Origin: an uncultured Methylobacter sp.
GTDB lineage: Bacteria; Pseudomonadota; Gammaproteobacteria; Methylococcales; Methylomonadaceae
NCBI GenBank assembly: GCA_903831545.1
Contig: CAIKYI010000708.1
Span: forward strand, 1-14,367
Direction of reading: 5' to 3'
Length of the DNA: 14,367 bases
Made by a program: the position numbers and the translations under genes. Shown here in pieces: positions 1 to 13,379 of the stretch; position 1 is the stretch's first letter; the number at the start of each line of letters is the position of its first letter. A model generated the notes under the pieces. The model worked only from the letters and a program-made list of their open reading frames with translations. It was not told where the DNA came from and ran no database searches.

Positions 1-324
1 TGGAACATTGCCCATAAAGAAATTGATTTAAAAAACTGGCGTGGAAATAAAAAAAACTCCGGCTTTTTACCAGAAGAAAGAGCCTGGCTTGATCAGTTAT
101 TTTCCGAGAATAAATGGATTGACGCCTTTCGACTCATTAATCATGATTCAGAACAATATACTTGGTGGTCAAACAGAGGCCAAGCCTGGACAAATAATGT
201 AGGCTGGCGTATTGATTACCAAATCATCAGTCCGTCTCTCAAAGATTGCGTAACAGCAGCCTCAATCTATAAAGACCAACGCTTTTCTGATCACGCTCCA
301 CTCATCATAGATTACGAGTTTTAA
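1..324 (+). CDS. xth: Exodeoxyribonuclease III, C-terminal part (partial)
   Basis: The reading frame is open from the first base and stops at TAA 322-324, giving the last 107 residues. It belongs to the exonuclease III / AP endonuclease family, which incises DNA at abasic sites and removes nucleotides 3'->5' during base-excision repair in the cytoplasm. Visible family landmarks are the GD-W/L-NIAH element (WNIAHKEIDL at the very start, containing the catalytic Asn), the FLPEERAWLD segment, the GWRIDYQ strand and the terminal SDHAPLIIDYEF, which holds the catalytic Asp-His pair. The DLKNWRGNKKNSGF insert resembles the ExoA-like form found in many beta- and gammaproteobacteria. The N-terminal half lies outside the window. 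A terminator hairpin follows 20 bases downstream, so this gene is not co-transcribed with the next one. Confidence 0.93.
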   Translation, partial: WNIAHKEIDLKNWRGNKKNSGFLPEERAWLDQLFSENKWIDAFRLINHDSEQYTWWSNRGQAWTNNVGWRIDYQIISPSLKDCVTAASIYKDQRFSDHAPLIIDYEF

Positions 325-344
325 TCTTGATATTTGCGTATAGC

Positions 345-376
345 TGGGTATTAGTTCAAAATGCCCAACGTTTTTT
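345..376 (+). terminator. Intrinsic terminator after xth
   Basis: An 8-bp stem, TGGGTATT (345-352) with AATGCCCA (360-367) including one G-T wobble, encloses a 7-base loop. After AACG comes a run of six T (371-376). It lies just past the exonuclease stop codon and before the permease gene, so it should end the xth transcript. No convincing sigma70 promoter for the following operon was found between here and 405. Confidence 0.6.
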
Positions 377-405
377 GATAAGTTGCCCATAACCGTAAAT
401 CCTCA

Positions 406-1761
406 ATGACCAAACCCATTCACTTAAGACAATTTGCTTCACGCACTCGTCAATGGTTAATCATGGCGCTTGGCTTTTTAATGACTTTTGGGCTTGTTTT
501 ATTGAGTAGCCTTGAAACAACTCTCAATATTAGCGGCTGGAGCAGTGGCTTCATCCACCCTTTACACGGTGGCGACCACCTACTCACCATGCTTGCTGTG
601 GGCATTTGGGCCGCTCAATTACGAGGCTCGGCAATTTGGTTATTACCCCTCACTTTTGTCGGTGTAATGAGTCTGGGAGGTTTGGCGGGTGCAGCAGGGC
701 TCTTAATTCCGGGCGCTGAGCCCATTATTTTGCTTTCCTGCCTGGTTTTTTGCGTTCTTATTATTCGCAGAATCCGCTTCAGCAATCAAACCAATCTTTT
801 AATAGTCGCTTTCTTTGCCTTTTTTCACGGCTTTGCCCACGGGCAGGAAATTTCAACATCTGCAAGCCTGATTTCTTATACTTTAGGGTTCATGGTTGCT
901 ACACTGCTGTTACACGGCGCAGGCATTCTGGTTGTACGTCTACTTGTAGTCTTTTTCGCATTTTTTATCAGCTATTTAGCACACGCACAACCCACAAGTG
1001 ATGCTGTAGCTAATAAATATAACGCACTGACCACATCAAAAGAATTTATTTCGCCTTCCCACTCAACATTGCCCGATAACCAAAGCTATCAAAATTTTTT
1101 GTTTATCGACGAAAATAATACCAAACACCGACTCCCAAAACTGGATCACTTCAACATTAGGCCGCATAGCTCTGAACCTGCGAATAATTACTTGACCCAA
1201 GCCAAGGATGAAATTAGTAATATTATATTTAATGCAGCTTCATATCTGGCAATTAATCATCAGACTGGCATTCACTTTCTAACTAACGGCGTTGGCCTGA
1301 CTTCACCGCCATACACATTGATGCCAAACACTATTCCTCGCTTTTACACTGCAAGTTCGGTTTGTCACGCTTCAGAATATACTGCCATTAATGGCATCCA
1401 GCCTTTAATAACGCGCCTCGGCTTAAAGCCACCTCATTTTCTTTATTCTCCAGCCACGAGTTTACTAACTAATGGCAAAGGCGCAACTTCACCGCCTTTT
1501 GTAAACACATTCCCTGCTGTTACCTCATTCGCTCTAAATGATATTGTATTTAGCAATTCGTTCTCCGTTAAAAATTTCATCCCGCTGTCATCATCCGACA
1601 GCAACATTTTATTTTCCAACAAGTCTTTAGCTGCAGGAATGCAATCTTATGCGTCCTTATGCCTTTTACTATTGCCTTACAAATCTCACTTGACCGACAA
1701 AATAATTCGTCAGCCACTTCTAAAACTTTCTACAATTCACTTAAGCAGAGAAACAACATGA
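406..1761 (+). CDS. HupE/UreJ-family metal permease with a long novel C-terminal extension
   Basis: Residues 1-193 match the HupE/UreJ family of small inner-membrane permeases linked to nickel or cobalt uptake. Landmarks are the first membrane segment (about 18-36), the signature GFIHPLHGGDHLL at 48-60 with His51, His54, Asp57 and His58, a second metal-like cluster FHGFAHGQE (140-148) and LLHGAG (168-173). Family members normally end after about 190-200 residues. Here the last membrane segment (177-191) ends in LAHA-QPTSD, which looks like a signal-peptidase site. About 255 further residues follow, rich in Asn, Ser, Thr and Pro, with a duplicated motif, LTNGVGLTSPP (292-302) and LTNGKGATSPP (354-364). 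I do not recognise this extension. The start at 406 lacks a clear Shine-Dalgarno; Met20 is an alternative. The stop overlaps the start of the next gene (ATGA), so the permease and the outer-membrane receptor are probably made together. Confidence 0.8.
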   Translation: MTKPIHLRQFASRTRQWLIMALGFLMTFGLVLLSSLETTLNISGWSSGFIHPLHGGDHLLTMLAVGIWAAQLRGSAIWLLPLTFVGVMSLGGLAGAAGLLIPGAEPIILLSCLVFCVLIIRRIRFSNQTNLLIVAFFAFFHGFAHGQEISTSASLISYTLGFMVATLLLHGAGILVVRLLVVFFAFFISYLAHAQPTSDAVANKYNALTTSKEFISPSHSTLPDNQSYQNFLFIDENNTKHRLPKLDHFNIRPHSSEPANNYLTQAKDEISNIIFNAASYLAINHQTGIHFLTNGVGLTSPPYTLMPNTIPRFYTASSVCHASEYTAINGIQPLITRLGLKPPHFLYSPATSLLTNGKGATSPPFVNTFPAVTSFALNDIVFSNSFSVKNFIPLSSSDSNILFSNKSLAAGMQSYASLCLLLLPYKSHLTDKIIRQPLLKLSTIHLSRETT

Positions 1762-4010
1762 GAAAATCACAACTAAATATCCCGCACATTCTTTCCTGCA
1801 AACCACAAACGCAAAGCTTGCAGAGAGCAGGAATGGCCATATTTGCCTGCTCAGTTATGCTTAGTTATTCTGACATTACTCTAGCCGCTGCCATTATTGA
1901 TGTTAAAACTGCCGGAGGCACAACAGAAACCACGGAAAAGAAACCAGCATCAAAAGGTTTAAATAATGCTAAGCCAAAGGCCAGTAAAAACGACACGGTT
2001 GAACTTGAAGATATGGTCGTGAATACAGAACGCGCAGACTCCCTTGTGGGTATTGCAAGCAGCGCCTCACAAGGTAACGTAGGGCAAGAACAATTAAAAT
2101 ATCGCCCGGTAACACGCCCAAGTGAAATTTTAGAAACCGTACCCGGTTTGATTTCAAGTCAACACAGCGGTGAAGGTAAAGCTAGCCAATATTATCTTCG
2201 CGGTTTTAATCTCGATCATGGCACAGATTTTTTAACGCAAGTCGATGGCGTCCCGGTAAACCTTGGCTCACATTCACACGGCCAAGGCTGGATGGATACA
2301 AATTTTTTAATTCCCGAAATGATTAAAACCATCAACTATCAAAAGGGCAATTATTACGCAGAAAATGGTGACTTTTCCAGCACGGGTGCGGCGAATATTC
2401 TGTATTTTAGCGATCTTCCTGAACACACGGTGAAATTCACCGGGGGTAGTTTTGACTACTACCGTGGCTTAGTTATGGGCTCAAAAAAACTCGGTGATGG
2501 TAATTTGGTGTATGCCGGCGAAACAGTTCATAACGGTGGCCCTTGGACCGTGAGCAATGATTATATGAAGTTCAACGGCGTTCTAAAATATAGCGAAGAA
2601 CACGGCAATCATGGCTGGAGTTTAACCGGCATGGCTTATAAAGCCGATTGGAAATCAACAGACCAGATTCCTTTACGTGCCATCACCAATGGCACTATTG
2701 ATCGTTTTGGCAATATCGACCCCACCGATGGCGGCATGAGTCAACGCTATAGTTTAACGTCAGAATGGCATCGCCAAGACAATGATAGTAAAACCCAAAT
2801 CATGGCATATGGCTTGTATTCACAGCTTAATTTGTTTTCGAATTTTACCTATTTTATGGATGACCCCGTTAATGGCGATCAATTTGGACAACCTGATGAG
2901 CGTTTTGTGACCGGCACTAAAGCCACTCACACGATTTATCACAAATTGGGCCGATTTGATTCGGAAAGCACTTTTGGTTTGCAATTTAGAAACGACAACA
3001 TCGACAACGCTTTATTGAAAACAAAAGCTCAACATATATTAGATATAACCAGAAATGACACGACTTGGGTAAGTAGCTTAAGTCCATATTTTGACAATAA
3101 AACAACCTGGACAAATTGGTTACGAACCGATGTCGGTCTTCGTTTTGACGGTTATCGTTTTAATGTGAGCAAAAGCAATCAAGCTGCAAATAATGGCACA
3201 GCCTACGATGGTATTGTCAGTCCAAAAGCGGGTATCGTTTTGGGGCCTTGGGCAGAAACCGAATTTTATTTAAACGGTGGTTTAGGGTTTCACAGTAATG
3301 ACGGACGCGGCATAAATACACACGTTGATCCAAAGACAGGTAGCACAACCGATGCGGATGGTAACCCGATTAAACCAGCCGTACCGCTTGCGCGCACTTA
3401 CGGAGCAGAAGTGGGTGTACGTAGTAATTGGGTGAAAGGTTTAAACAGCACCCTATCCGTTTGGTGGCTCGATATTGATTCTGAACTGTTATTCGTCGGT
3501 GATGCCGGATCTACCGAGGCAAGTCATCCTAGTCGCCGTTATGGTATTGAATCAGCCAACTATTATTCACCAACAAACTGGCTGACATTTGATGCTGATT
3601 TAAGCTTTTCAAAAGCGCGTTTCCAAGGCCATCCAGCAGAGGGAAGCCATATTCCTGGCTCTGTTGAAACAGTAATTGCCTCAGGCGCGACGTTTCATGA
3701 TGTATTTGGAGGATTTTATGGCGGTCCTCGATTACGTTATTTTGGTCCACGCGCATTAATTGAAGATAACAGCGTGCGATCAAAGGAAACATTGATGCTC
3801 TCGGCTATGCTCGGCTATGAATTCAACAAACAGTGGAAGTTGCAAGCGGAGGCTTTCAATTTATTGGGTAGAAAAGACAGTGGAATTGATTATTACTATG
3901 GGTCCTGCTTGAAAACAGATACTTCGTGCCCAATCGGTGGCAACCAAGATATTCACCTCCATCCAGTCGAACCACTCAGTTTTAGAATGACAATATCAAC
4001 TTCATTCTAA
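1758..4010 (+). CDS. TonB-dependent outer-membrane receptor, probable metal or metal-complex uptake
   Basis: This 750-residue protein is a TonB-dependent receptor, which imports a ligand across the outer membrane using TonB energy. The start at 1758 is preferred over an in-frame ATG at 1659: it overlaps the upstream stop as ATGA and places a signal peptide (hydrophobic 24-37, cleavage near TLA-A, residue 43) at the N-terminus. A Lys/Thr-rich linker (50-80) and a TonB-box-like stretch VELEDMVV (81-88) precede the plug (about 95-215), which contains RPSEILETVPG, YYLRGF and QVDGVPVN. The rest is beta-barrel ending in Phe750, as usual for these proteins. Candidate metal ligands are GSHSHGQGW in the plug (170-178) and IHLHPVEP near the end (732-739). 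Cys717 and Cys724 are the only cysteines of the mature protein. The permease partner upstream suggests a metal substrate, but the ligand is not proven. Confidence 0.88.
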   Translation: MRKSQLNIPHILSCKPQTQSLQRAGMAIFACSVMLSYSDITLAAAIIDVKTAGGTTETTEKKPASKGLNNAKPKASKNDTVELEDMVVNTERADSLVGIASSASQGNVGQEQLKYRPVTRPSEILETVPGLISSQHSGEGKASQYYLRGFNLDHGTDFLTQVDGVPVNLGSHSHGQGWMDTNFLIPEMIKTINYQKGNYYAENGDFSSTGAANILYFSDLPEHTVKFTGGSFDYYRGLVMGSKKLGDGNLVYAGETVHNGGPWTVSNDYMKFNGVLKYSEEHGNHGWSLTGMAYKADWKSTDQIPLRAITNGTIDRFGNIDPTDGGMSQRYSLTSEWHRQDNDSKTQIMAYGLYSQLNLFSNFTYFMDDPVNGDQFGQPDERFVTGTKATHTIYHKLGRFDSESTFGLQFRNDNIDNALLKTKAQHILDITRNDTTWVSSLSPYFDNKTTWTNWLRTDVGLRFDGYRFNVSKSNQAANNGTAYDGIVSPKAGIVLGPWAETEFYLNGGLGFHSNDGRGINTHVDPKTGSTTDADGNPIKPAVPLARTYGAEVGVRSNWVKGLNSTLSVWWLDIDSELLFVGDAGSTEASHPSRRYGIESANYYSPTNWLTFDADLSFSKARFQGHPAEGSHIPGSVETVIASGATFHDVFGGFYGGPRLRYFGPRALIEDNSVRSKETLMLSAMLGYEFNKQWKLQAEAFNLLGRKDSGIDYYYGSCLKTDTSCPIGGNQDIHLHPVEPLSFRMTISTSF

Positions 4011-4026
4011 ACAATAGAAATAATAC

Positions 4027-4062
4027 AAAAACGTTACTGATTTACTAATCGGTTTCGTTTTT
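4027..4062 (+). terminator. Intrinsic terminator of the permease-receptor operon
   Basis: Outer arms AAAAACG (4027-4033) and CGTTTTT (4056-4062) and inner arms ACTGATT (4036-4042) and AATCGGT (4047-4053, one G-T wobble) form an interrupted stem with a TACT loop, ending in five T. It starts 17 bases after the receptor stop codon. Confidence 0.65.
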
Positions 4063-4308
4063 ACAAATTACAGAAACTGCAATGTTACTTTGCATAATTC
4101 CTACACCAATGGGAATTTATAGTGACCTCTTAAATCAAAAAGTTGATAAATGACACCATTAAAACCACTATAACGACATTAAATTACGCTTTTTATTTCT
4201 ACAAGCCATCACTTTATCAACGAAGATATTTATAATTGAAGAGCCAGCTAATTTTTACAAAATCATTACTAATAACAACTATGGTATTTAGCTTCAATTT
4301 TCACACAC
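4063..4308. other. Gene-free intergenic stretch
   Basis: This AT-rich stretch lies between the convergent terminators of the receptor operon and the - strand genes. I see no open frame with a ribosome site, no repeat array and no tRNA-like structure in it. Confidence 0.5.
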
Positions 4309-4340
4309 AAAAAAGCCCCGTTAAACTTTAACGAGGCTTT
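4309..4340 (-). terminator. Intrinsic terminator for the - strand helical-protein gene
   Basis: Arms at 4312-4324 and 4328-4340 form a 13-position stem with a 3-base loop. The single C-A mismatch on the + strand becomes a G-U wobble on the - strand, where the stem is followed by six T (A4309-A4314). It is therefore built for - strand transcripts, about 120 bases after the stop of the gene at 4461-4847. Confidence 0.7.
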
Positions 4341-4422
4341 AAATACTTTAATATGACGTCAGTTCAGTTATATGTAAGAATAAAAGTAAAATCTTATCAA
4401 ATATACTGCCTAATCGGTCAGA

Positions 4423-4460
4423 TTAATTATCTGCTTCTTGTTAAAGAAGCAGATAATTAA
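4423..4460 (-). repeat. Perfect 17-bp inverted repeat abutting a stop codon
   Basis: TTAATTATCTGCTTCTT (4423-4439) and its exact complement (4444-4460) are separated by GTTA. The right arm ends one base before the stop codon (4461-4463) of the - strand gene. There is no T-run, so it is more likely an mRNA 3'-end stabiliser or a helper upstream of the true terminator at 4309-4340 than a terminator itself. Confidence 0.7.
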
Positions 4461-4847
4461 TTACAATATGCTTTTTAATGCTAAGAAAGCTTTTTGTGCA
4501 TCTCTTAACTCTTGCTCTGCTTCTTGTCTGGCGCCGTCTTTCAAGTGTGCACGTGCAGCTTTAAGTTTGCTATGAACTTTATCACGTGAAGCAAATACTT
4601 TATCGCTTGCATTGATTTCTTTACTTGCTGCCAACACGTCTTTGATAAGCTCAGAAACTTTATCTGCATCTTCTCCCTTAGTCAGCGCTTCAAGAGCCAC
4701 ACCTACTTTAGCTGCAACCATATCAATGGCATCAGCAGGAGCATAAGTAATTCGACCAGCATCAACTTCTGCCATTACTGAAGTTGAAACAGCCCCCATA
4801 GAAGCAGTGATACAAAAAGCTAATGCAATTTTTTTTAAATTTTTCAT
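4461..4847 (-). CDS. Small exported helical protein (paralogue of the 5151-5546 product)
   Basis: This 128-residue protein has a clear signal peptide (KNLKK then hydrophobic 7-22, cleavage after VMA at 24-26), so it should be periplasmic. The mature part is charged, Ala/Lys-rich and almost entirely predicted helix, in two helix-turn-helix units with Gly-centred turns: ALEALTKGEDADKVSELIKD (51-70) and ARAHLKDGARQEAEQELRDA (98-117). From residue 67 it aligns with the neighbouring product with one gap (L-x-x-D, KE, K-x-x-x-KLK, R landmarks), so the two genes are a duplicated pair. The architecture recalls the Nitrosomonas small metal-binding protein SmbP, but the many His residues of SmbP are missing (only two His). 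A Shine-Dalgarno GAGGA lies at 4857-4861. Function unknown; a stress or metal-related periplasmic role is possible. Confidence 0.82.
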   Translation of the reverse strand: MKNLKKIALAFCITASMGAVSTSVMAEVDAGRITYAPADAIDMVAAKVGVALEALTKGEDADKVSELIKDVLAASKEINASDKVFASRDKVHSKLKAARAHLKDGARQEAEQELRDAQKAFLALKSIL

Positions 4848-5150
4848 GGTTTTAAGTCCTCAAGTTATTTTTATTTTAAAATTTATTGGCAAACTATATT
4901 ATCATCAAAAGATGCAGCTATGAATTTACACTACCCTCTTAATATTTTTAAAAGGGTAATAGCAAATCGTTCAACAGCTTATTAACAAACTTAGGTTTCG
5001 AGTGCAATTTACGCTCGTAAATTTCATTTTATACCTTAGTAACCCTGTAGGGTCAAAAACTTTTATTATTTAAATTTAATCTATAAATAGAAAGCGCCAA
5101 CTTCTTGCTGTCAGCACTTAATTAAATAATTGATTATGGACTGCTTTATT
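4848..5150 (-). other. Intergenic region with three hairpins between the two paralogues
   Basis: There is no gene here. Besides the Shine-Dalgarno for the gene ending at 4847, it holds three dyads: TACCCT/AGGGTA (4932-4937 with 4953-4958), CGAGTG/CGCTCG (4999-5004 with 5012-5017, one wobble) and ACCCT-GT-AGGGT (5042-5053). None has a downstream T-run on the - strand. They may belong to a structured 5' leader. A possible -10 (GATAAT on the - strand near 4900-4905) has no good -35 partner. Confidence 0.45.
5086..5119 (-). terminator. Possible intrinsic terminator of the 5151-5546 gene
   Basis: On the - strand AAGTGC (5119-5114) pairs with GCGCTT (5097-5092) with one G-U wobble. An inner CAGC/GTTG pairing leaves a three-base bulge. 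TTTCTATTTAT follows, a weak T-rich tail. It lies about 30 bases after the stop codon. Confidence 0.4.
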
Positions 5151-5546
5151 TTAGTGTGCTGCGTCGTACACTTTTTTCATTTCTGCATAGATAGCTAACG
5201 CTTCATTTAATGCAGCCAATGCTTTTGCATTATCATTACCAATGAAAGCATCACGAGTAATTTTTAATTTATCCTGTAATTTTTGACGAGTGCGCTCTGT
5301 TTGCTCATAACGAAATTCTTTTTGAGCTTGACGAGCGTCATTCAAAAGTTGTTGGATTTGATCATGATCACCGCCATTTTCCAGCAAACTTTTAGCTTCC
5401 AGCATTTTAGATTCAGTCAGCTTACCAGCACCTTCAACAACAGCATTTAAATCTTTTTTCTCTTCCTTTGAAAAAGCTGCTGAAGACACTGCTAACATAG
5501 ATACAGTCATAACAACAGAAACGGCAATTTTATTAAATAACTTCAT
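5151..5546 (-). CDS. Small exported helical protein (paralogue of the 4461-4847 product)
   Basis: This 131-residue protein has an N-terminal signal peptide (KLFNK, hydrophobic 7-24, probable cleavage near SSAAFS-K, residue 26). The mature part is highly charged and helical, with two helical hairpins: EAKSLLENGGDHDQIQQLLN (50-69) and RDAFIGNDNAKALAALNEAL (98-117). It contains no cysteine in the mature part and only two His, one in GGDHDQ (His61) and one at the C-terminus. Residues 67-98 align with the paralogue at the same positions within one residue. Shine-Dalgarno AAGGAT (5557-5552) sits five bases before the ATG. The SUMF1 gene terminator lies just upstream, so this gene is likely transcribed separately. 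I know no named family that fits; an SmbP-like four-helix bundle is the nearest structural analogy, from memory. Confidence 0.82.
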   Translation of the reverse strand: MKLFNKIAVSVVMTVSMLAVSSAAFSKEEKKDLNAVVEGAGKLTESKMLEAKSLLENGGDHDQIQQLLNDARQAQKEFRYEQTERTRQKLQDKLKITRDAFIGNDNAKALAALNEALAIYAEMKKVYDAAH

Positions 5547-5626
5547 TTTTAATCCTTAGTGGTGGTTTGGTTAAATATTTATTCAACTTTATATATTTAC
5601 GAAATGTAGAACAAAAGACATTTAAC

Positions 5627-5655
5627 AAAAAAAATGACTGTTGCCGACAGGCATT
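5627..5655 (-). terminator. Intrinsic terminator of the SUMF1-domain gene
   Basis: On the - strand the arms AATG-c-CTGT and ACAG-t-CATT (5655-5647 and 5641-5633) enclose loop CGGCA and are followed at once by eight T (A5627-A5634). It lies about 115 bases after the stop at 5772, and upstream of the 5151-5546 gene, separating the two transcripts. Confidence 0.65.
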
Positions 5656-5771
5656 TTAGCACAGATTCTGCTTCAGTAAAGCTCGCCTAATAAATACGGG
5701 GCGCCATCACTGCGCCAAACCACCAGCAACAAAAAAATGTTACATTTAAGCTGGATAATTTTAGTAGCCGA

Positions 5772-6551
5772 CTATCGAATCTCTCTCAATACCCGGAATC
5801 CAATATCATTGGTCCGACTACTGGGTAAACCACTGTAACGCAAGGCTGAACGCAAATTAACAGCCTTCCCTACCCAACTGCCACCTCGATAAACGCGATA
5901 CTGACCAACATCAGGCCCCATAGGATTTTTCTCAGGACTTTTTTGGTAATAATTTGGCTCATACCAGTCCTGCACCCACTCCCAAACATTGCCGTGCATG
6001 TCGAACAATCCCCATGGATTAGGTTTTTTTTGACCGACTTCGTGACTTCCTCCACCATAACCTTCATTGCCAAACCAAGCGTATTCAATTAAATCCTTTG
6101 GCTTACCTCCAAATGAGTAAAGACCTGTACTGCCTGCTCTGGCGGAGTACTCCCACTCCGCTTCACTAGGAAGCCGATAAGCGCTGCCACCTTCCTTTTC
6201 ATTTAAATGCTTAATAAACTCTTGGGCATCATTCCAGCTAACTTTATCTACAGGTTTATAAAAAGCCTTAAATTTACTTGGATTAGTCCCCATTACATCT
6301 TCCCATTGCTTCTGCGTGACTTCTGTTTCACCCAGATAAAACGGTTTTTCAATGCAGACACGGTGCTGAGGTAATTCAATAGGGCTACTTTCTTTGAGTT
6401 CAATATCTCGGCCCATCAAAAAACAGCCCGCCTCAATTCTGACAAACCGAATACCTGCAAAAGCTTTGTAATCAACTGCAAGTGCGGATTGACAAAATAC
6501 GGCACTCATAGCAAAACCAAAACCAACTCTGAAATTTTTATTAAGCTTCAT
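5772..6551 (-). CDS. Exported SUMF1 / formylglycine-generating-enzyme-fold protein, catalytic cysteines absent
   Basis: This 259-residue protein has a signal peptide (cleavage after SALA, 22-25) and then a complete SUMF1 (FGE-sulfatase) domain from about 33 to the end. Landmarks are GCFLMG (42-47), YLGETEVTQKQW (72-83), VSWNDAQEF (104-112), RLPSEAEWEYSARAG (126-140), GLFDMHGNVWEWVQDW (181-196), RGGSW (222-226) and GFRV (251-254). True formylglycine-generating enzymes carry a copper-binding Cys pair between RGGSW and the GFR motif. Here that segment, VGKAVNLRSALR, has no Cys, so formylglycine formation by the known mechanism is unlikely. Cys43 and Cys66 are the only mature cysteines. Relatives without the Cys pair include lectin-like, chaperone-like and NirV-type proteins. 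Shine-Dalgarno AAGGGAAG (6565-6558) supports the start. It is divergent from the propeller lipoprotein gene. Role unknown. Confidence 0.88.
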   Translation of the reverse strand: MKLNKNFRVGFGFAMSAVFCQSALAVDYKAFAGIRFVRIEAGCFLMGRDIELKESSPIELPQHRVCIEKPFYLGETEVTQKQWEDVMGTNPSKFKAFYKPVDKVSWNDAQEFIKHLNEKEGGSAYRLPSEAEWEYSARAGSTGLYSFGGKPKDLIEYAWFGNEGYGGGSHEVGQKKPNPWGLFDMHGNVWEWVQDWYEPNYYQKSPEKNPMGPDVGQYRVYRGGSWVGKAVNLRSALRYSGLPSSRTNDIGFRVLREIR

Positions 6552-6608
6552 AATGACTTCCCTTATTGAATTGTGAATTAAGCGTACTCAATGCAGCTGC
6601 TGATTAAT

Positions 6609-6629
6609 ATTATATATTAACAGTGTTAA
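6609..6629 (-). promoter_or_regulatory. Perfect TATAAT -10 with an adjoining operator-like palindrome
   Basis: On the - strand TATAAT (6614-6609) is an exact sigma70 -10 for the SUMF1-domain gene, about 60 bases before its start codon. Immediately upstream lies the perfect dyad TTAACA-G-TGTTAA (6617-6629), placed where it would overlap the spacer between -35 and -10. No good -35 is seen, which fits a promoter needing an activator or controlled by a repressor. The divergent gene at 6672 could share this site. Confidence 0.4.
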
Positions 6630-6671
6630 ACTAAATGCATCCCCATCAATATTAAGCAGTATTTTATAATA

Positions 6672-7874
6672 ATGCCCTCATTTTCTTATATTCCTGCACT
6701 GACACTGAGCGCCACTCTATTTCTGTTAAGCGCCTGCCTTAACACAACGCCTGCTCTACAAACCCTCATACCCATGGACTTAAATCCCTCTTTAGGCTTA
6801 GAGGAAGTAACAAGTTTTGATGTCGCCATTAATAACGGTTTGATTCATCTTCTTGTAGCCGGCAAAACATCAGGAAAAAACAGCCCTGTTGTCGTGCGTT
6901 ATTTGTCTTCAGAAGATGGCGGCGACAATTGGATAGCGGCAGTTGATGTCAGCAACAAAACCAAACCAATCGCAACCAGAGGCAATGACGTACAAATAGC
7001 CGCGGCTAAAAACAACTTAGTGGCAATTTGGCAATCAACCGGTGATTTGGAAAATAGTGGACCGATGATGAATCGCTATTCTCATGATGGCGGAAAAACA
7101 TGGTTCACAGGCAAAAATCCAGCACAGGATAATAGCGGCGATCAATCGCATATTGATGTCATTTCAGATAAAAACGGTGTTTTTCATGCAATATGGTTAG
7201 CTGACCCCGAAGAAAATGGTTTTCAAAGCCTTCGCTATGCACGCTCCATAAATGCAGGGGTAAATTGGCAAGCAAGTTTGAAACTGGATGAGTCTACCTG
7301 TTCATGTTGCTGGAACACTTTGGCAATTTCCCCAGCGGGAGAGCTAAATGTACTTTATCGGGATATGAAACCCCGTGACATGGCATTAATGCAATCATCA
7401 GATCAAGGATCAACATGGCGACAAGCCAGCATTGTTGGTGATTTTAAATGGCAGTTTGATGGCTGCCCTCATATTGGCGGCGGTATAGCCATTCATGACA
7501 ATAATACTATATACAGTAGCGTATGGACCGGTATTGAAGGTAAAGCAGGCTTGTATTTTCTCCGCTCCACCGACAATGGCAAGACCTGGAGTAACCCACA
7601 ACCACTTGGCGGGTTGGCGAGCCATAGCGATATTGCCGTAAATAACCAGAACGTAGCCGCAATTTGGGATGAAAGAGAGCCAGACGGATCAAGTATTTTT
7701 TTTAAACACTCCAATATCGGCACTATTTCATGGTCAACACCAGTGCGATTATCACCAGTCGGCGCAATGGCCTCACATCCACGTATCGTTTCGAACCTTG
7801 ACGGATATTTAGTCCTGTGGACAGAGAAGCACAACAAACACACAAAGCTGGTTATTAAAAGATTAACAGAATAA
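6672..7874 (+). CDS. Lipoprotein beta-propeller with Asp-boxes (BNR repeats) and a CSCC motif
   Basis: This 400-residue protein starts with a lipoprotein signal (LLSAC, lipidated Cys22), so it should be membrane-anchored facing the periplasm or outside. Asp-box repeats of the S-x-D-x-G-x-x-W type occur at 79-87, 137-144, 192-199, 242-249 and 299-306, with a degenerate one at 346-354, as in six-bladed sialidase-like propellers. Database searches would probably label it exo-alpha-sialidase, but nothing points to sugar cleavage: there is no evident FRIP motif or Arg triad. The distinctive part is DESTCSCCWNTLA (206-218) with Cys210, Cys212 and Cys213, and later GCPH (264-267). With the lipid Cys these are all the cysteines. 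The cluster suggests metal binding or disulfides. Next to copC, a copper-handling or assembly role is a reasonable guess. The Shine-Dalgarno is weak. Confidence 0.85.
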   Translation: MPSFSYIPALTLSATLFLLSACLNTTPALQTLIPMDLNPSLGLEEVTSFDVAINNGLIHLLVAGKTSGKNSPVVVRYLSSEDGGDNWIAAVDVSNKTKPIATRGNDVQIAAAKNNLVAIWQSTGDLENSGPMMNRYSHDGGKTWFTGKNPAQDNSGDQSHIDVISDKNGVFHAIWLADPEENGFQSLRYARSINAGVNWQASLKLDESTCSCCWNTLAISPAGELNVLYRDMKPRDMALMQSSDQGSTWRQASIVGDFKWQFDGCPHIGGGIAIHDNNTIYSSVWTGIEGKAGLYFLRSTDNGKTWSNPQPLGGLASHSDIAVNNQNVAAIWDEREPDGSSIFFKHSNIGTISWSTPVRLSPVGAMASHPRIVSNLDGYLVLWTEKHNKHTKLVIKRLTE

Positions 7875-7961
7875 GGTTTAGCGTAAATCGATGCTTGTGT
7901 AGCTTTCCCCGTCTTCGACAGCCTATAGCTTTTTTAATATGTGTCACCTAGTGTTTGGTCT

Positions 7962-7967
7962 TATAAT
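7962..7967 (+). promoter_or_regulatory. Putative -10 box for the copC operon
   Basis: An exact TATAAT lies about 36 bases before the preferred copC start at 8004. The best upstream partner, GTGTCA (7941-7946), is only 15 bases away, so the -35 is poor. If used, transcription would begin near 7974, inside the in-frame GTG-initiated extension, which argues against that longer start. Confidence 0.35.
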
Positions 7968-8003
7968 GACGTTTTGTTACTACCTTTTTCATTCCTAGAT
8001 TTT

Positions 8004-8399
8004 ATGACTCGGCGCCAATATAATTATAAAAAAAATCACTACCTGCTTTCATCTTTAGTCTTACTATCGGCAATGACTGCATCCTCTCAGATATTTGCCC
8101 ATGCCATCATGGTGCGCTCTTCACCAGAAAAAGATATCGTTTTAGCGTCTTCTCCCAAACAAATCGATGTTTGGTTTAATGATAAAGTCGGGACGGAATA
8201 CAAGTCTCTCGCCGTTATTGATAGTAAAGGCAATCGAGTTGACAATAAAGACTTGCAACAAGAAACCTTTGACCAGTCACATCTGTATGCCACCGTGCCG
8301 TCCTTGGCACCTGACACCTACACTGTACGTTACCGCGTTGTCTCTATTGATACACATATAGTTACGGGCAAATTCCAATTTACTGTTAAAGCGCCTTAA
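8004..8399 (+). CDS. copC: Copper-binding periplasmic protein CopC
   Basis: This 131-residue protein is a CopC-family copper chaperone. The signal peptide covers residues 1-32 (hydrophobic 13-25) and cleavage at IFA-HAI would expose His33 as residue 1 of the mature protein, the hallmark of the CopC Cu(II) site together with a downstream Asp-x-His. That pair is present as Asp116 and His118 in SIDTHIVTGKFQFTV (mature 84 and 86). The S-S-P motif (VRSSP, 38-42) and the YTVRYRVVSID strand are also typical. There is no Met-rich Cu(I) loop, so it resembles Cu(II)-only CopC. The frame extends upstream to a GTG at 7941, but the extra 21 residues would precede the signal peptide and span a -10 box. CopC leads an operon: two bases separate its stop from the next start. 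Confidence 0.88.
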   Translation: MTRRQYNYKKNHYLLSSLVLLSAMTASSQIFAHAIMVRSSPEKDIVLASSPKQIDVWFNDKVGTEYKSLAVIDSKGNRVDNKDLQQETFDQSHLYATVPSLAPDTYTVRYRVVSIDTHIVTGKFQFTVKAP

Positions 8400-8401
8400 T
8401 C

Positions 8402-9067
8402 ATGATAAATAAAATTGTTGTTACATGGATTTGTCTGCTACTGCTTACGAGTCAACTAATTGGTTGCGATAAAAATAATTTGGGCACACAACCACAAATC
8501 CCCGACCTTAATAGTGTTGGCTGTTTAATTACCAATGATTTTTATGCCGTACATTTCAGCGTTTATGTAAAAACGTCTGCCACGAAGCAAGACAGTAGTG
8601 ATAGAGCGGCCTTATTAAAACCATTTTGCCAGGAACTACCTACTGTTGGTAAAGCGTTCTTTTCCGCAGATTTGATAGATCGTGATATCCGTAAAACTCC
8701 TATCGGCATTCGGGTAGTTGAACTGGAACTCACCGGCTCTGATGACAGTAAACCGGAAGATTTTAAAGAAGTACGCACCATCACCGAGGTTGCCCCAAAA
8801 CTCTATACAAATGGTGTGGTAGAAGCCCAGGCCGATATCGTTAAAAACGGTTATTACGCCATATTTCTTCTGATCGGCGGAGAAGATGCCATTTCAGACG
8901 AAGATAAACTGAGAATACCATTTCATGTAGGCGGCAATCCTGATGCATTACCTAAAAAAACAGTGATGCTGATTGCCGGCGGTGGCGTCGTGCTGGTGAG
9001 CCTGATTTTAATTGCACTGGTTTGGTATCGTAAAAAAGCGCGCAATAAGAGCTTATCCAATGATTAA
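8402..9067 (+). CDS. Unrecognised membrane-anchored periplasmic protein
   Basis: This 221-residue protein begins with a signal sequence ending in LIGC (19-22), a possible lipobox. A periplasmic domain (23-185) and one C-terminal membrane helix (187-208) follow, with a basic cytoplasmic tail (YRKKARNK). The periplasmic part appears beta-rich, as in Ig-like or cupredoxin-like sandwiches, with conserved-looking stretches SADLIDRDIRKTPIGIRVVE (88-107) and ADIVKNGYYAIFLLIGG (144-160). Cysteines are Cys22, Cys41 and Cys76. I do not recognise the family. The layout (signal, periplasmic domain, single C-terminal helix) and the position beside copC resemble AmoD/PmoD proteins of ammonia and methane oxidisers, but I see no convincing shared motif. 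It starts two bases after copC and overlaps the next gene by eight bases, so the three products are probably made in concert. Confidence 0.82.
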   Translation: MINKIVVTWICLLLLTSQLIGCDKNNLGTQPQIPDLNSVGCLITNDFYAVHFSVYVKTSATKQDSSDRAALLKPFCQELPTVGKAFFSADLIDRDIRKTPIGIRVVELELTGSDDSKPEDFKEVRTITEVAPKLYTNGVVEAQADIVKNGYYAIFLLIGGEDAISDEDKLRIPFHVGGNPDALPKKTVMLIAGGGVVLVSLILIALVWYRKKARNKSLSND

Positions 9068-10160
9068 AATAGTTACATTTATGTTCTTGCTGGGATTTTC
9101 TCTATCCTGCCTGGCACATGACCCCGGACTAAGTTCGGCCGATGTAATCCTTAAAGCCCATGGCGTAAATGTAAAAATAACGTTTTCGTTACAAGATATT
9201 GAAGCATTTGTACCGATGGATAGCGATCTGGATGCGGAAGTTACCTTGGCAGAACAGGAAGCGGCAAAACCATTTATCGCTTCATGGGCAATAAATGGAG
9301 CGCAACTTGCTTTTGACGAAAAAAATGTTCAACCTGCAATGCCTGGTGTGGTAACTTTCGATCAGAAAAATAATGCCTTTATCGAATTTCAATACCCGCA
9401 AACACCTGGCAAGCAACTTCAATTACACGCCGAATTTTTTAAGCAATTACCGGCAAATCACAAGCAGTTTGTAACCATAAAAGATGAGGCGGGGCATGGC
9501 ATAAGTGAGAAAATGCTATCTCAAGAAGATAACACAATGACATTGCCTTTACCGGCAGCTAACGCCAACGAAAACAGCACCATTGCTGAAAGCCCAAAAG
9601 CCTCGGTCTTCACTGACTTTCTGCTACTTGGAATTGAGCACATTCTGACAGGCTATGATCATTTACTGTTTTTATTTTCTTTACTCATTGTAACTCGCAG
9701 CTTTTGGCCGGCAATTAAAATCATTACTTTTTTTACCATTGCCCATTCAATTACCTTAGCTCTTGCCGGGCTCAATATTATTGACATACCTAGCCAAATC
9801 GTTGAGCCGTTAATTGCCGCAACGATTGTTTATGTCGCCTTGGAAAATATTTTGCGAGGTGATCACCCCAAAGGACGACAATGGCTTACTTTCTTTTTTG
9901 GCTTGATACACGGCTTTGGTTTTGCTGCCGTGTTACGCGAAATGGGGATTACTTCCTATGAAACAGGCATCATGGTGCCGCTGTTCTCTTTTAATCTGGG
10001 CGTAGAGCTCGGACAGATTACTGCTGCAGTGATTATTTTACCGATCATATGGTGGCTACATAAGCAGCCAAAAATAGAATCTAGAGTCATGCCTGCCTGC
10101 TCAGTTTTAATCTGCCTGGCTGGCGGTTACTGGCTAATAGAACGTACTTTGCTGAACTAA
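9060..10160 (+). CDS. HupE/UreJ-type membrane protein with periplasmic domain and EF-hand-like loop
   Basis: This 366-residue protein belongs to the second HupE/UreJ group, with an exported N-terminal domain and a C-terminal permease-like membrane domain. The start at 9060 overlaps the preceding gene by eight bases and is followed directly by a signal peptide (cleavage at SCLA-HDP), so mature residue 1 would be His20. The periplasmic domain covers 20-185 and carries DSDLDAEVTLAE (54-65), which matches an EF-hand calcium loop except Ala for Gly at position six. The membrane domain (186-362) has GIEHILTGYDHLLFL (191-205), TIAHS (226-230), GLIHGFGFA (281-289) and GVELGQ (314-319), placing His193, Asp200, His201, His229, His284 and Glu316 in membrane segments. 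Substrate unknown; a divalent metal is likely from the family and copC linkage. An earlier in-frame ATG at 9012 would precede the signal peptide and is rejected. Confidence 0.88.
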   Translation: MIKIVTFMFLLGFSLSCLAHDPGLSSADVILKAHGVNVKITFSLQDIEAFVPMDSDLDAEVTLAEQEAAKPFIASWAINGAQLAFDEKNVQPAMPGVVTFDQKNNAFIEFQYPQTPGKQLQLHAEFFKQLPANHKQFVTIKDEAGHGISEKMLSQEDNTMTLPLPAANANENSTIAESPKASVFTDFLLLGIEHILTGYDHLLFLFSLLIVTRSFWPAIKIITFFTIAHSITLALAGLNIIDIPSQIVEPLIAATIVYVALENILRGDHPKGRQWLTFFFGLIHGFGFAAVLREMGITSYETGIMVPLFSFNLGVELGQITAAVIILPIIWWLHKQPKIESRVMPACSVLICLAGGYWLIERTLLN

Positions 10161-10170
10161 GAACAGCTTG

Positions 10171-10194
10171 CTCCCTCTCTTACTAGAGAGGGAG
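10171..10194. terminator. Perfect 9-bp hairpin after the copC operon
   Basis: CTCCCTCTC (10171-10179) pairs exactly with GAGAGGGAG (10186-10194) around a TTACTA loop, 10 bases past the permease stop. It has no proper T-run on either strand, so it may act as a weak or bidirectional terminator or as an mRNA end protector. Confidence 0.45.
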
Positions 10195-10222
10195 TTCAGA
10201 GAATAAATGTCATACACCCCCC

Positions 10223-10278
10223 TGAGAGTAAGCCTACGTCGCAATTTTAGATGTTGGCAAAGACTAAGGCGACTCTCA
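10223..10278. repeat. 56-bp imperfect dyad between convergent genes
   Basis: TGAGAGT (10223-10229) and ACTCTCA (10272-10278) are exact complements. Inside, AGGC/GCCT-type pairing and a GTC/GAC pair continue the stem, with two internal loops and about a 21-base terminal loop. It lies 12 bases beyond the ampG stop on the - strand. No T-run follows, but it may serve as the ampG 3' structure. Confidence 0.4.
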
Positions 10279-10290
10279 CACAAAACCATA

Positions 10291-11610
10291 TCAATCTTGA
10301 ATATATGCTTCAGAGAGTTTTTGATAGCGCATTAATAAAAGCACAAGTACGATTGCTGGCAATCCCACGGTTGAAGCATAAATAAAAAATATCGTGTAGC
10401 CATAACTATCTACAACTACTCCAGAGAATCCACCCAATAACTGGGCTGGCAAAGTCATTAGCGAACTGAACAATGCATATTGTGTTGCCGTATAAGCAGT
10501 ACTGGTTAAACTTGAAAGATAAGCAATAAATACCGATGTGGCTATACCACCACTTAAATTATCCGCACTGATAACCCCTGCCAACAATAACAAATCAGGC
10601 TCACTAACCGCCAAAACTGCGAACAACAAATTTGTAGCTGCGACCATAATTGCCCCGAGCAGCAGAGGACGCATAATTCCATACCTGACAACAAGCATTC
10701 CACCTAGTGCAGCACCGACAATTGTCATGATAAAGCCAAAAATCTTACTAATCTCGGCAATCTCTTTTTTACTAAAACCCAAATCCAGATAAAAAGGGTT
10801 AGCCATTACTCCCATAGTAATATCGCTCATTTTATAAACTGCAATAAGCACTAAAATCAATAATCCAACTTTGCCGTTTCGGGCAAAAAAATCCACAAAG
10901 GGATCCAATACCGCCCCTACAAAACCTGACGAAATACGCCGCAAGATATTTTTGTGGCTGACTGGAAAATGCTCTACCTCCAAGACCCGATGCTCTGGCT
11001 CTTTGAGACATAGCGTAGTTATCACCCCAACTGACATTGAAATTGCCATCACAAAATAAGCCGCTCTCCAGCTGAAATAATCGGCTATGTAAAAGGCGCC
11101 GGCACCTGCCATTAATAAGGCAATTCGATAACCCAATACATAAGTTGCAGCCATAGCTCCCTGGTATTCAGGCTGGACCGATTCGATACGGTAGGCATCA
11201 ATAACAACATCTTGCGTAGCCGAACAAAAAGCCACCCAAACGGCAAAAAAGGCAATATATTGCAATTGACTATGAGAATCCAACCCTCCCATGCCAAACA
11301 ATCCGACAACAATCCCCAGTTGTGCCAACAACATCCAACTGCGTCTTTTACCTAAAAATTGAGTCAAAAAAGGTAAAGACACCCTATCAATCACGGGAGC
11401 CCAAAAGATCTTAATAGAATAAGTAACTCCAACCCAACTAAAAAAACCTATGACAGATCTTTCCACGCCTTCATCGCGCAACCACGCCGATAATGTTGAA
11501 AAAACCAGTAAAAAAGGAAGTCCTGCAGAAAAACCAAGAAAGATCATGCTCCGCACTCTTGGCTGAACATAAACCAAAAAAACTGAACGCCAACTTTTAA
11601 CACCAGGCAT
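10291..11610 (-). CDS. ampG: AmpG-type muropeptide permease (MFS transporter)
   Basis: This 439-residue inner-membrane protein belongs to the AmpG family of the major facilitator superfamily, which imports anhydro-muropeptides from the periplasm for cell-wall recycling and so feeds beta-lactamase induction in many proteobacteria. Family landmarks are GFSAGLPFLLVFSTLSAWL (26-44), IGFFSWVG (54-61), KIFWAPVIDR (67-76) with the LGKRRSWML loop (86-94), and the signature FCSATQDVVIDAYR (128-141). About 12 hydrophobic segments can be counted. Enterobacterial AmpG is about 490 residues, so this is a shorter form missing part of the C-terminal end. Shine-Dalgarno AAGG (11617-11614) precedes the ATG. 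It stands alone, downstream of the nhaD terminator, with no beta-lactamase or ampD gene beside it. Confidence 0.85.
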   Translation of the reverse strand: MPGVKSWRSVFLVYVQPRVRSMIFLGFSAGLPFLLVFSTLSAWLRDEGVERSVIGFFSWVGVTYSIKIFWAPVIDRVSLPFLTQFLGKRRSWMLLAQLGIVVGLFGMGGLDSHSQLQYIAFFAVWVAFCSATQDVVIDAYRIESVQPEYQGAMAATYVLGYRIALLMAGAGAFYIADYFSWRAAYFVMAISMSVGVITTLCLKEPEHRVLEVEHFPVSHKNILRRISSGFVGAVLDPFVDFFARNGKVGLLILVLIAVYKMSDITMGVMANPFYLDLGFSKKEIAEISKIFGFIMTIVGAALGGMLVVRYGIMRPLLLGAIMVAATNLLFAVLAVSEPDLLLLAGVISADNLSGGIATSVFIAYLSSLTSTAYTATQYALFSSLMTLPAQLLGGFSGVVVDSYGYTIFFIYASTVGLPAIVLVLLLMRYQKLSEAYIQD

Positions 11611-11649
11611 TGACCTTACTCATCACATTCCAACTCATGCTTAGATATA

Positions 11650-11664
11650 ACATTAAGGTAATGT
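11650..11664 (-). promoter_or_regulatory. Palindrome upstream of ampG
   Basis: ACATTA-AGG-TAATGT has exact 6-base arms and lies 40-54 bases before the ampG start. On the - strand it borders TTATATCT, a possible -10. It could be an operator, though an AT-rich dyad of this size can arise by chance. Confidence 0.25.
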
Positions 11665-11698
11665 CCCATAATTAACGAAAAAACAATAATTAATAACC

Positions 11699-11765
11699 AA
11701 AAAAAACACCACGAAAACAAACAGCATAAAAACATTAAAATTTTGTGCCGTTTGTCTTGGTGGTG
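11699..11765 (-). terminator. Strong intrinsic terminator of nhaD
   Basis: Arms 11707-11728 and 11744-11765 form a 22-position inverted repeat. On the + strand there are three mismatches and a wobble. On the - strand the two A-C mismatches become U-G wobbles, and the stem (beginning CACCACCAAGACAAAC) is followed by eight T (A11699-A11706). The asymmetry shows it serves the - strand nhaD transcript, about 100 bases after its stop. A second, alternative stem TTGTCTT/AAGACAA (11752-11758 with 11771-11777) overlaps the right arm. Confidence 0.75.
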
Positions 11766-11864
11766 AATTAAAGACAATTTATTTACCAGTATTTAGCTGA
11801 CTTGATGCTGTATACCTAAGCCTTTAAATTTGCATATCTGTCACTTAATACGCAGTTACGCCAA

Positions 11865-13226
11865 TCAACCATTGATTAAATAGTGAGCAACAATACTTGC
11901 TGCGTAACCACCAGCAATTGCAGGCGTCCATTTTAAATGACTGAAAAAGGTATATTTATGATCGGATTGCCCCATTAAGGCCACACCTGCGGCTGAGCCG
12001 ACAGACAAAAGCGAACCACCAACGCCGGCAGTCAACGTTACCAATAACCATTGATACAAGTCCATATCCAGATTCATGTTTAACACAGCAAACATAACTG
12101 GAATATTATCAACAATCGCAGAAATCACACCCACTAAAATATTGGCAGTTGTCGCACCGAGTCCGTCGTACATCGCGCCGGAAAGCAACTCAAGATAACC
12201 GATATAGCCCAAACCACCGACCGCAAACACTACGCCAAAGAAAAACAACAAGGTATCCCATTCGGCACCACGAACCTTATTAAAAACATCAAATCCTGCC
12301 TCACCTTCAGCACGATGATTCATTTTCAAATAATAGCCGTAAAGCATTAGCGCAGAAAAACCAACCATCATTCCCATAAATGGAGGCAAATGCAGGGCTT
12401 GCTTAAAACTGACCGCAGTAACAATGGTAAACAAGAACATCACACAAATAACAATTGCTCCCGGCTTTAATTGCACTGCAGCCTCAGTAGTGGCTTTAGG
12501 TTGCTCATCGGGCACTGCAAAATACATAACCGCTGCCGGTACGGCATAGTTAACTGCCGACGGGATAAACAAATTGAAGAAATCGAAAAACTCGGCGTAT
12601 TCAGCCTGCCAAACCATTAAAGTAGTAATGTCGCCAAAAGGACAGAAAGCACCGCCAGCATTAGCGGCAACCACTAAATTAACAAAACCGATGCTGACAA
12701 ATTTTGGATTGTCAGCACCAACTGCCATAACTACCGCGCCCACCAACAAAGCAGCTGTCAAGTTATCCGCTACTGCTGACAGAAAAAATGTAATAACACC
12801 TGTGATCAAAAACAATTTACGATAGCCAAACTGCTTTCTTACCAACCAGGAGCGTAAAGCCTCAAACACGTTGCGCTCTGACATCGAATTGATATAGGTC
12901 ATGGCAACCAGCAGGAACAACATTAACTCTGCATATTCTTTCAAGTTGTATTCGAAAGCTTCATGCATGGCTTCAACAGAAACACCTGCTTGAGTTGCTA
13001 AGACAGAGGCGTTCGCCCAGATGATACCAGCGGCCAAGATAACCGGCTTGGACTTACGCAGATGAGTAAACTCTTCTGTCATCACAAAGCCATAGGCAAT
13101 AATAAAGATCAAAACGGTGTATATTCCCCGCTCCGTTCCCGTCAGCCCCAAGCTTTCAAAACCACCCGCCATTGCCATCCCAGGCAAAAACAATAAAGAT
13201 AACAAGACAAAAATAGACCGCAACAA
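11865..13226 (-). CDS. nhaD: Na+/H+ antiporter NhaD
   Basis: This protein belongs to the NhaD family in the ion-transporter superfamily, which exports Na+ (and Li+) in exchange for protons across the inner membrane. Features are an N-terminal hydrophobic leader ending in GMAMA, about 12 membrane segments, and the family motifs SAVADNLTAALL (near residues 150-161), NAGGAFCPFGDITTLMVW (189-206) and IVDNIPVMFAVL towards the C-terminus, which carry Asp and Asn residues expected in the ion path. I place the start at TTG 13226: the strong Shine-Dalgarno GAGGGGG (13238-13232) lies directly upstream, with 5 bases from its end. TTG 13223 is equally possible. The frame stays open to another TTG at 13271, but that would translate through the ribosome site. 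Length is then about 453 residues. A divergent promoter is shared with the reductase gene. Confidence 0.9.
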   Translation of the reverse strand: MLRSIFVLLSLLFLPGMAMAGGFESLGLTGTERGIYTVLIFIIAYGFVMTEEFTHLRKSKPVILAAGIIWANASVLATQAGVSVEAMHEAFEYNLKEYAELMLFLLVAMTYINSMSERNVFEALRSWLVRKQFGYRKLFLITGVITFFLSAVADNLTAALLVGAVVMAVGADNPKFVSIGFVNLVVAANAGGAFCPFGDITTLMVWQAEYAEFFDFFNLFIPSAVNYAVPAAVMYFAVPDEQPKATTEAAVQLKPGAIVICVMFLFTIVTAVSFKQALHLPPFMGMMVGFSALMLYGYYLKMNHRAEGEAGFDVFNKVRGAEWDTLLFFFGVVFAVGGLGYIGYLELLSGAMYDGLGATTANILVGVISAIVDNIPVMFAVLNMNLDMDLYQWLLVTLTAGVGGSLLSVGSAAGVALMGQSDHKYTFFSHLKWTPAIAGGYAASIVAHYLING

Positions 13227-13286
13227 AATAACCCCCTCGTTATTATTTAAATAATTAATCAAAACACCCAAAAATTAGCGGCCAAT

Positions 13287-13314
13287 ATTATCACCATACA
13301 ATAACCTTTGTCAT
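13287..13314 (-). promoter_or_regulatory. Sigma70-like promoter for nhaD
   Basis: On the - strand ATGACA (13314-13309) and GATAAT (13292-13287) are separated by 16 bases; each hexamer matches five of six consensus positions. Transcription would begin near 13280, giving a leader of about 50 bases. Confidence 0.5.
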
Positions 13315-13336
13315 TTTATGACCTACAGTATATGAT
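13308..13336 (+). promoter_or_regulatory. Sigma70-like promoter for the nitrite/sulfite reductase gene
   Basis: TTGTCA (13308-13313), a 17-base spacer and TATGAT (13331-13336) each match five of six consensus bases. The start codon follows 43 bases after the -10. The -35 lies on the same base pairs as the divergent nhaD -35. Confidence 0.55.
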
Positions 13337-13379
13337 TATTAGTCGTAATTAATAGCCTGGACAGGCACTAAACGCTCAC

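Follow-up and report, generated by a model that had tools for sequence, protein, structure and literature searches.

A candidate copper-acquisition island in a Methylobacter-like methanotroph and a predicted permease–receptor polyprotein in its relatives

Our study examined a window of 14,367 nucleotides from an uncultured Methylobacter sp. (GenBank assembly GCA_903831545.1, contig CAIKYI010000708.1, positions 1 to 14,367 of the forward strand), in which nine genes between positions 406 and 10160 encode exported or membrane proteins, as judged from the list of open reading frames (ORFs), Pfam matches, hydropathy and reading of the N-termini. The forward strand carries HupE1, a HupE/UreJ permease with a tail (406..1761); a TonB-dependent outer-membrane receptor (TBDR) with its own signal peptide, a plug (PF07715) and a barrel (PF00593) (1758..4010); a propeller lipoprotein, 'CSCC' (6672..7874; BNR_2, PF13088, lipobox assigned by reading); CopC (8004..8399; PF04234, expectation value (E) 9.5e-22); h221, a PmoD/AmoD homologue (8402..9067); and HupE2, a HupE/UreJ-2 permease with an exported N-terminal domain (9060..10160; HupE_UreJ_2, PF13795, E 2.1e-46). 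Three genes on the reverse strand lie between the receptor and the propeller. Hydropathy placed a hydrophobic segment, N-terminal or internal, in seven of the nine proteins, and the other two, CopC and a protein with the fold of a formylglycine-generating enzyme (FGE), fell under the threshold but have N-termini that read as signal peptides. The cluster of envelope genes with a receptor, two HupE/UreJ permeases and CopC, which an earlier sequence-only reading had picked out, was therefore borne out by Pfam, signal and transmembrane evidence, and sequence comparison gives good family assignments for CopC, PmoD, the TBDR and the HupE proteins.

The receptor was taken to start at the ATG at 1758, inside an ATGA overlap with the HupE1 stop codon (TGA, 1759-1761), and an ORF start at 1659 was rejected; the most likely starts of CopC and HupE2 are 8004 and 9060. 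Intergenic distances are -4 bp for HupE1-TBDR, +2 bp for CopC-h221 and -8 bp for h221-HupE2, and HupE1-TBDR and CopC-h221-HupE2 look like two translationally coupled operons. The division of the cluster into several transcripts by terminators, also put forward from the sequence, is plausible: a pattern-based count gave 27 terminator-like sites in the window against 15.5 +/- 4.8 in shuffled sequence, and the coding strand switches at 4010/4461 and 6551/6672.

The core of HupE1 (approximately residues 38-180) contains both metal motifs of its family, HPLHGGDH and FHGFAHGQE, and the PF04955 match (145 bits) covers residues 43-180 only, corresponding to profile positions 20-157 of 179 and stopping short of the last helix. 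Beyond it, HupE1 retains a signal-peptidase-like site (SYLAHA↓QPTS, residues 194/195) followed by a fast-evolving tail of 256 residues (991..1758), with two copies of [FL]LTNG-x-G-x-TSPP whose matched parts lie at DNA positions 1285-1310 and 1471-1496. Tails matching that of the window were found in seven loci and more could be aligned, with one or two copies of the motif [FL]L[TS][NS]GVG[LA]TSPP (LTNGVGLTSPP), while a shorter class of tail (L092, L096 and their kin) has neither the motif nor a clear cleavage site. A protein search with residues 196-451 revealed no known domain and gave three relatives besides the window, all of them HupE proteins. Searching five genomes with a degenerate DNA version of the motif gave 11 hits, seven of them in HupE1 tails with variable third codon positions; the other four equalled in number the four hits of a control pattern. 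The ratio of non-synonymous to synonymous substitution rates (dN/dS) of the tail was 0.29-0.56 in 12 of 14 pairs, against 0 to 0.20 for the HupE core in 12 scorable pairs. Two close Methylomonas-type pairs speak against constraint on the tail, L085/L086 with dN/dS of 1.67 (27 changes) and L085/L089 with 1.71 (7 changes). Given homologous tails, variable third codon positions and the ratios in the 12 pairs, a chance open frame was rejected.

HupE1 and the TBDR occupy two overlapping ORFs in the window, whereas a search with both proteins revealed five genomes of the same genus in which they are joined in a single open frame. A protein search with the HupE part of such a fusion gave 235 hits, and the best 120 of these, which were inspected, were either long proteins with PF04955 and PF07715 (usually also PF00593) or shorter HupE proteins with a tail. 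Selection by FHGxxHG and a plug pattern gave 109 fusion sequences. Removing redundancy at 97 % identity left 99, of which loci supplied 21 and the protein database 78; they come from methanotrophs, Nitrosomonas and Verrucomicrobiota, and 94 are 820-938 amino acids (aa) long, the other five being short. The glutamate of FHGxxHGxE is present in 99/99, FHGxxHG itself being the selection criterion, and HPxxGxDH is retained in 97/99, the exceptions being L077 and L112, where the N-terminus is broken or unclear. Of 121 Methylococcales genomes sampled, at least 11 encode HupE within a frame of at least 870 aa with a profile match that ends early, and at least 28 within one of 316-543 aa (both counts by eye); the receptor content of the long frames was checked for G001, G011 and G020.

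An assembly or frameshift artefact was rejected as the source of the fusions in view of 99 non-redundant proteins and of isolates, namely L084 (Methylotuvimicrobium buryatense 5G), L109/L110 (Nitrosomonas oligotropha), P0021, P0052 and P0054. Against this stand the five short sequences and L077, from the complete genome of Methylomicrobium wino1, which has an in-frame stop in the N-terminal signal region and may be a broken copy. In L112 the receptor is partly missing and the HupE start unclear; both loci were retained in the fusion counts. L112 is a metagenome-assembled Nitrosomonas chromosome in which a partial amoC-like ORF (6349-7203; 45 % identity to the PmoC of L132) overlaps the start of the HupE-TBDR ORF, possibly through rearrangement or assembly error. 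L118 and L119 have fusion-like length but unrelated N-termini and were counted as unfused.

At the junction, the last HupE helix ends in a signal-peptidase site (A/V-x-A↓Q) immediately upstream of the receptor. The strict AxA pattern occurs within a 24-residue junction window in 79/99 fusions, compared to 428/4950 random windows from the same proteins, and a 37-row alignment has A at position -1 and A or V at -3 in 36 rows each, and Q or E at +1 and G at -6 in 34 rows each. A permissive signal-site pattern matched 99/99 junctions but also 79 % of random windows, so only the strict count and the alignment columns were used as evidence for the site. In the AlphaFold model of the fusion in L074 (37 sequences; predicted local distance difference test (pLDDT) 81.8), a low-confidence linker (178-205) lies between a helical bundle and a plugged barrel, and the site (184/185) falls within this linker; the 50 fold hits listed are all TBDRs, and the PF04955 match in L074 spans profile positions 2-158. 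Scanning 27 junction entries, of which 22 were distinct after dropping five genes fetched twice, found no internal ATG or GTG near the junction supported by a Shine-Dalgarno sequence in 21 of the 22 loci (TTG was reported only with such a sequence); the high-GC locus L111 has two, and L082, L083 and L110 contain no ATG or GTG at all in the scanned stretch. Synthesis of the receptor from an internal start is therefore disfavoured. In five fusion pairs, dN/dS was 0.05-0.14 in the HupE half and 0.04-0.07 in the receptor half, and both halves of the fusion are under purifying selection.

If the C-terminus of a standalone HupE is cytosolic and the extra helix of the fusion is a retained receptor signal peptide, then shorter HupE proteins with K/R tails are to be expected. 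Standalone HupEs beside fusion-related loci stop after the preceding helix, with a K/R-rich tail in L088, L093, L097 and L124; those of L068 and L111 carry one more helix. The relatives thus combine a single ORF, an internal signal peptide with a signal peptidase I site and the lack of a supported internal start, and HupE-TBDR is predicted to be a polyprotein that serves two membranes and is split by signal peptidase I. Among the papers listed by open-licence literature searches that named HupE, none was on such a fusion, although it may be in print elsewhere. Bradyrhizobium fbcH, the cytochrome b/c1 polyprotein, is likewise synthesised as a single chain of an inner-membrane and an exported protein, which signal peptidase cleaves at an internal signal peptide. 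HupE-TBDR would follow the same one-chain plan, but its released half would be an outer-membrane receptor, whose final membrane differs from that of its partner. If this is true, the polyprotein is an unusual way of making partners in two membranes from one start codon, and as a prediction it is more surprising than the island itself; the window would hold a split variant of the polyprotein.

In a TBDR tree of 65 rows the fused state requires eight changes, of which well-supported branches make at least five unavoidable. The window receptor sits in an unfused clade of 14; L107, cut by the contig end, was scored as unfused although its junction is visible. The HupE tree groups fused and tailed forms together, separate from standalone HupE (support 99). 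We read these trees as fusion first and splits later, and the window HupE1 and TBDR are best explained as having arisen by the splitting of a HupE-TBDR polyprotein, or as near relatives of one. Taken together, we consider it fairly probable that methanotrophs, ammonia oxidisers and some Verrucomicrobiota make a polyprotein in which the receptor signal peptide is the last helix of the permease and from which signal peptidase I yields 1:1 subunits, and that the window holds the split form, with a fast-evolving exported tail in the receptor's place that may be released as a peptide for the same copper route; release of the tail is speculation. Both forms coexist in L083 (5427-9613), where a tailed HupE gene lies directly upstream of a HupE-TBDR fusion.

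Copper is the best-supported metal for the island, ahead of nickel or cobalt, because of the residues of CopC, the homology of h221, the N-terminal histidine of HupE2 and the proximity of particulate methane monooxygenase (pmo) genes in three related loci. CopC aligns to the solved CopC 5icu (E 2.3e-12) from its predicted mature histidine onwards, and the window protein has both this N-terminal His (FA↓HAIM) and SIDTH, the DTH completing the residues of a Cu(II) histidine brace, which are kept in 16 of 18 CopC hits, 13 of them identified by a script and another 3 by reading. No Pfam family was found at E 0.01 for h221, or for the products of 4461-4847 and 5151-5546, but h221 matches the solved PmoD 6cpd with E 3.2e-4 as a single sequence and 1.6e-11 as a profile. 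It has an export signal, a lipobox by reading and a C-terminal transmembrane helix at 188-206, as PmoD/AmoD proteins do, and C41 and C76 are invariant (16/16). The window protein carries Cx9HxnC (C41, H51, C76) and lacks the CuA-forming Cx7MxHxnC motif, which assigns h221 by sequence to the PmoD family, outside the CuA subset. According to Fisher et al. 2018 (PMC6189053), the Cx9HxnC class is often near copC, and a tested member bound Cu without CuA. The first mature residue of HupE2 is predicted to be His (LA↓HDPGLS), and H20 is invariant in 15/15; for the Ang-1 domains of HupE/UreJ-2 permeases, PMC12537917 gives a dissociation constant of 74 nM for Cu2+, which is thus bound more tightly than Ni2+ (220 nM). 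Among 68 genome-collection loci retrieved with the fused HupE-TBDR of L050, a set whose counts are biased to the query and which includes short contigs, pmoB was found in three: in L132 and L093, pmoCAB is at most 1 kb away from the island (pmoB being split over two ORFs in L093), and in L129 the same holds for pmoB, at the edge of the stretch examined.

From the gene content, the partly conserved co-occurrence, the intact candidate copper ligands and the related islands beside pmo genes, we think it fairly probable that the island encodes a trans-envelope copper-acquisition route. The TBDR, powered by TonB-ExbBD, would import a copper species through the outer membrane; CopC, the PmoD-like h221 and probably the CxCC propeller lipoprotein would receive copper in the periplasm; and HupE2, with its N-terminal His domain, and HupE1 would carry it across or into the inner membrane. 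In the polyprotein, the TBDR signal peptide would double as the last HupE helix until signal peptidase I releases the receptor. We infer copper as the substrate, the direction of transport and the order of carriers. Metal acquisition, as proposed in the sequence-only reading, is supported by family membership and by the pmo genes adjoining three loci, while that all nine genes act as one system we infer, as that reading did. To our knowledge, the supply of copper to particulate methane monooxygenase in methanotrophs without methanobactin is not settled, and the island offers a concrete, knock-out-ready candidate for copper uptake with every compartment represented; the HupE-TBDR fusion also occurs in the tractable M. 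buryatense (strain 5G, L084).

The points that weigh against a copper route concern CopC, HupE2, pmoA, the permease motifs, the closest relatives of the receptor and the distribution of the copper genes, and are considered in that order. The CopC copies of L088 and L093 lack the N-terminal His. HupE2 gave no sequence match at E 1 to the solved Ang-1 structures, inclusion of RbAng-1a (9GCE) among them being unconfirmed. No pmoA was found in the window's own assembly, which is fragmented (805 contigs) and 73 % complete, although 21 of 25 relatives do show it. HupE1 retains the canonical HPxxGxDH and FHGxxHGxE motifs of known nickel/cobalt transporters, and HupE is an established nickel transporter. 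HupE1 and HupE2 could then be ordinary nickel/cobalt permeases and the TBDR an importer of a nickel or cobalt chelate, with CopC and PmoD in a separate copper role. The near-universal retention of both motifs in the fusions fits this alternative, as does the binding of Ni2+ by Ang-1 (PMC12537917). However, neither in the window nor in 18 related loci did a search find a cobalamin or NiCo riboswitch that passes the Rfam gathering threshold, CopC, PmoD and pmo proximity favour copper, and related genomes own separate standalone HupE paralogues of ~190-250 aa that are able to serve nickel. We therefore regard nickel/cobalt acquisition as unlikely, and of the metals linked to the cluster beforehand copper has gained support, nickel and cobalt less so.

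The receptor itself points elsewhere by sequence. Against the PDB at E<=0.01, the TBDR profile matched only YncD (6v81) and PqqU (9c4o), at E 9e-9; these receptors, linked to the uptake of pyrroloquinoline quinone (PQQ), are also the top two by fold in Foldseek, where the copper receptor OprC ranks 39th. The substrate might then be PQQ, another small organic cofactor or a metallophore, rather than copper itself, with the copper genes as mere neighbours. Yet the sequence match is confined to profile positions 409-690, identity by fold is 17-18 %, and FecA, FoxA, BtuB and OprC rank close behind. The genomic context is metal-related, and the receptor has several invariant histidines (H137, H155, H173, H175, H734 and H736, in the numbering of the alignment query, 15 rows). 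A substrate of this kind seems to us doubtful, and more so than nickel or cobalt.

Copper genes are not found nearby in many HupE1-TBDR loci. CopC, PmoD-like and propeller genes were absent from the DNA examined, at most 7 kb on each side, around the fused loci L069-L074, L076-L078 and L084, which belong to Methylobacter, Methylicorpusculum, Methylomicrobium and Methylotuvimicrobium, some of the contigs ending sooner. The island is composed of two modules, propeller-CopC-h221 and HupE1-TBDR, sometimes joined and sometimes apart; they are joined in some Methylococcales and in the betaproteobacterium Nitrosomonas oligotropha. A search with the propeller gave 40 relatives, nine of them close and lying in eight other genomes. 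Next to these nine, CopC and an h221 homologue were found in six and a HupE_UreJ_2 gene in two, and a TBDR of 42-45 % identity lies within ~10 kb in three. Fused HupE1-TBDR is present in 22 of the 68 loci and separate HupE1 in 24, the propeller in 10, CopC in 10, an h221/PmoD-like gene in 9 and a HupE2-like gene in 17 (two at just 30-32 % identity); a full TonB-ExbB-ExbD set lies between HupE1 and HupE2 in 8, confirmed by Pfam in L132. Near-complete islands occur in L082, L083, L108, L109, L110, L129, L132 and L033, those of L109 and L110 being without HupE2 and that of L033 having a different TBDR (45 % identical). Because gene sets recur together in other genomes, the association appears to go beyond chance, and the co-occurrence expected from the sequence holds within two modules that are separate in many genomes.

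This separation, together with the several predicted transcripts in the window, would also fit a shared envelope-rich neighbourhood without joint function. Against it, the gene order recurs in Methylococcales and N. oligotropha, and the same genome holds a paralogous cluster on C457 (L042, 789-6799) with a TBDR-like ORF of 822 aa, a CxCC propeller of 417 aa and TonB-, ExbB- and ExbD-like ORFs, so that mere proximity appears to us highly improbable. A CxCC propeller paralogue in L043 likewise accompanies TBDR, TonB, ExbB and ExbD; no such neighbours were found for the paralogues in L046, L047 and L048.

The window propeller was modelled by AlphaFold with pLDDT 85.9 as a BNR/sialidase-type propeller fold. 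Invariant residues in a 34-row alignment are C210, C212 and C213 of CSCC and C265 and H267 of CPH, and CxCC recurs in 7/7 paralogues examined. Of nine more distant relatives, all have CP and eight have CxCC, the exception being L041, a fragment. The invariant Cys and His residues suggest a metal or redox site. Thioredoxin-like exported proteins adjoin the propeller in several islands (L109:9697-10191, L132:11682-12158) and could be a redox partner for CxCC. Just 3' of the propeller gene in L092 (11966-12050) lies a cyclic di-GMP-I riboswitch (43.7 bits), of which there is none in the window.

Among known systems, copper TBDRs include OprC/NosA, the methanobactin receptor and Bordetella BfrG. 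The window receptor is likewise a TonB-dependent outer-membrane protein, with copper here a proposed substrate, but in the window or in relatives it is coupled or fused to HupE and is nearest in sequence to YncD/PqqU, not OprC. The rhizobial HupE nickel permease has the PF04955 core and both metal motifs, which HupE1 and the fusions keep; most fused or tailed forms, however, match the profile only to ~157-163 of 179, and a signal-peptide-like helix with a receptor or tail replaces the last helix. CopC-CopD/PcoABCD shares a CopC with the His brace, whereas the window has no CopD and its inner-membrane partners would be HupE-type permeases. PMC6189053 and PMC13374858 describe copC adjoining pmoD-like genes, near pmo/amo. 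HupE2 resembles the Ang-1 'anglerases' described in PMC12537917 in having an exported domain with a predicted mature N-terminal His on a PF13795 permease, but no solved Ang-1 domain was found to match it by sequence; the neighbours listed in that paper are DUF4198, indigoidine synthase A-like and PfkB genes, whereas those of HupE2 are TBDR, CopC and PmoD.

The three reverse-strand genes comprise smA (4461..4847, 128 aa), smB (5151..5546, 131 aa) and the SUMF1/FGE-fold gene (5772..6551). The smA and smB products are weakly similar exported paralogues (29 % identical) outside known families; they recur in related islands, in 7/68 and 9/68 loci, respectively, and the best PDB match of smA had E 0.075. 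The FGE-fold protein (FGE-sulfatase, PF03781, E 5.3e-49; 6/68 loci) has a C-terminal RGGSW region that lacks the cysteines of an active FGE, and it is probably not an FGE. Downstream and outside the island (10291-14366) are an AmpG-family transporter and then, by reading, an NhaD-like antiporter and a sulfite/nitrite reductase-like gene.

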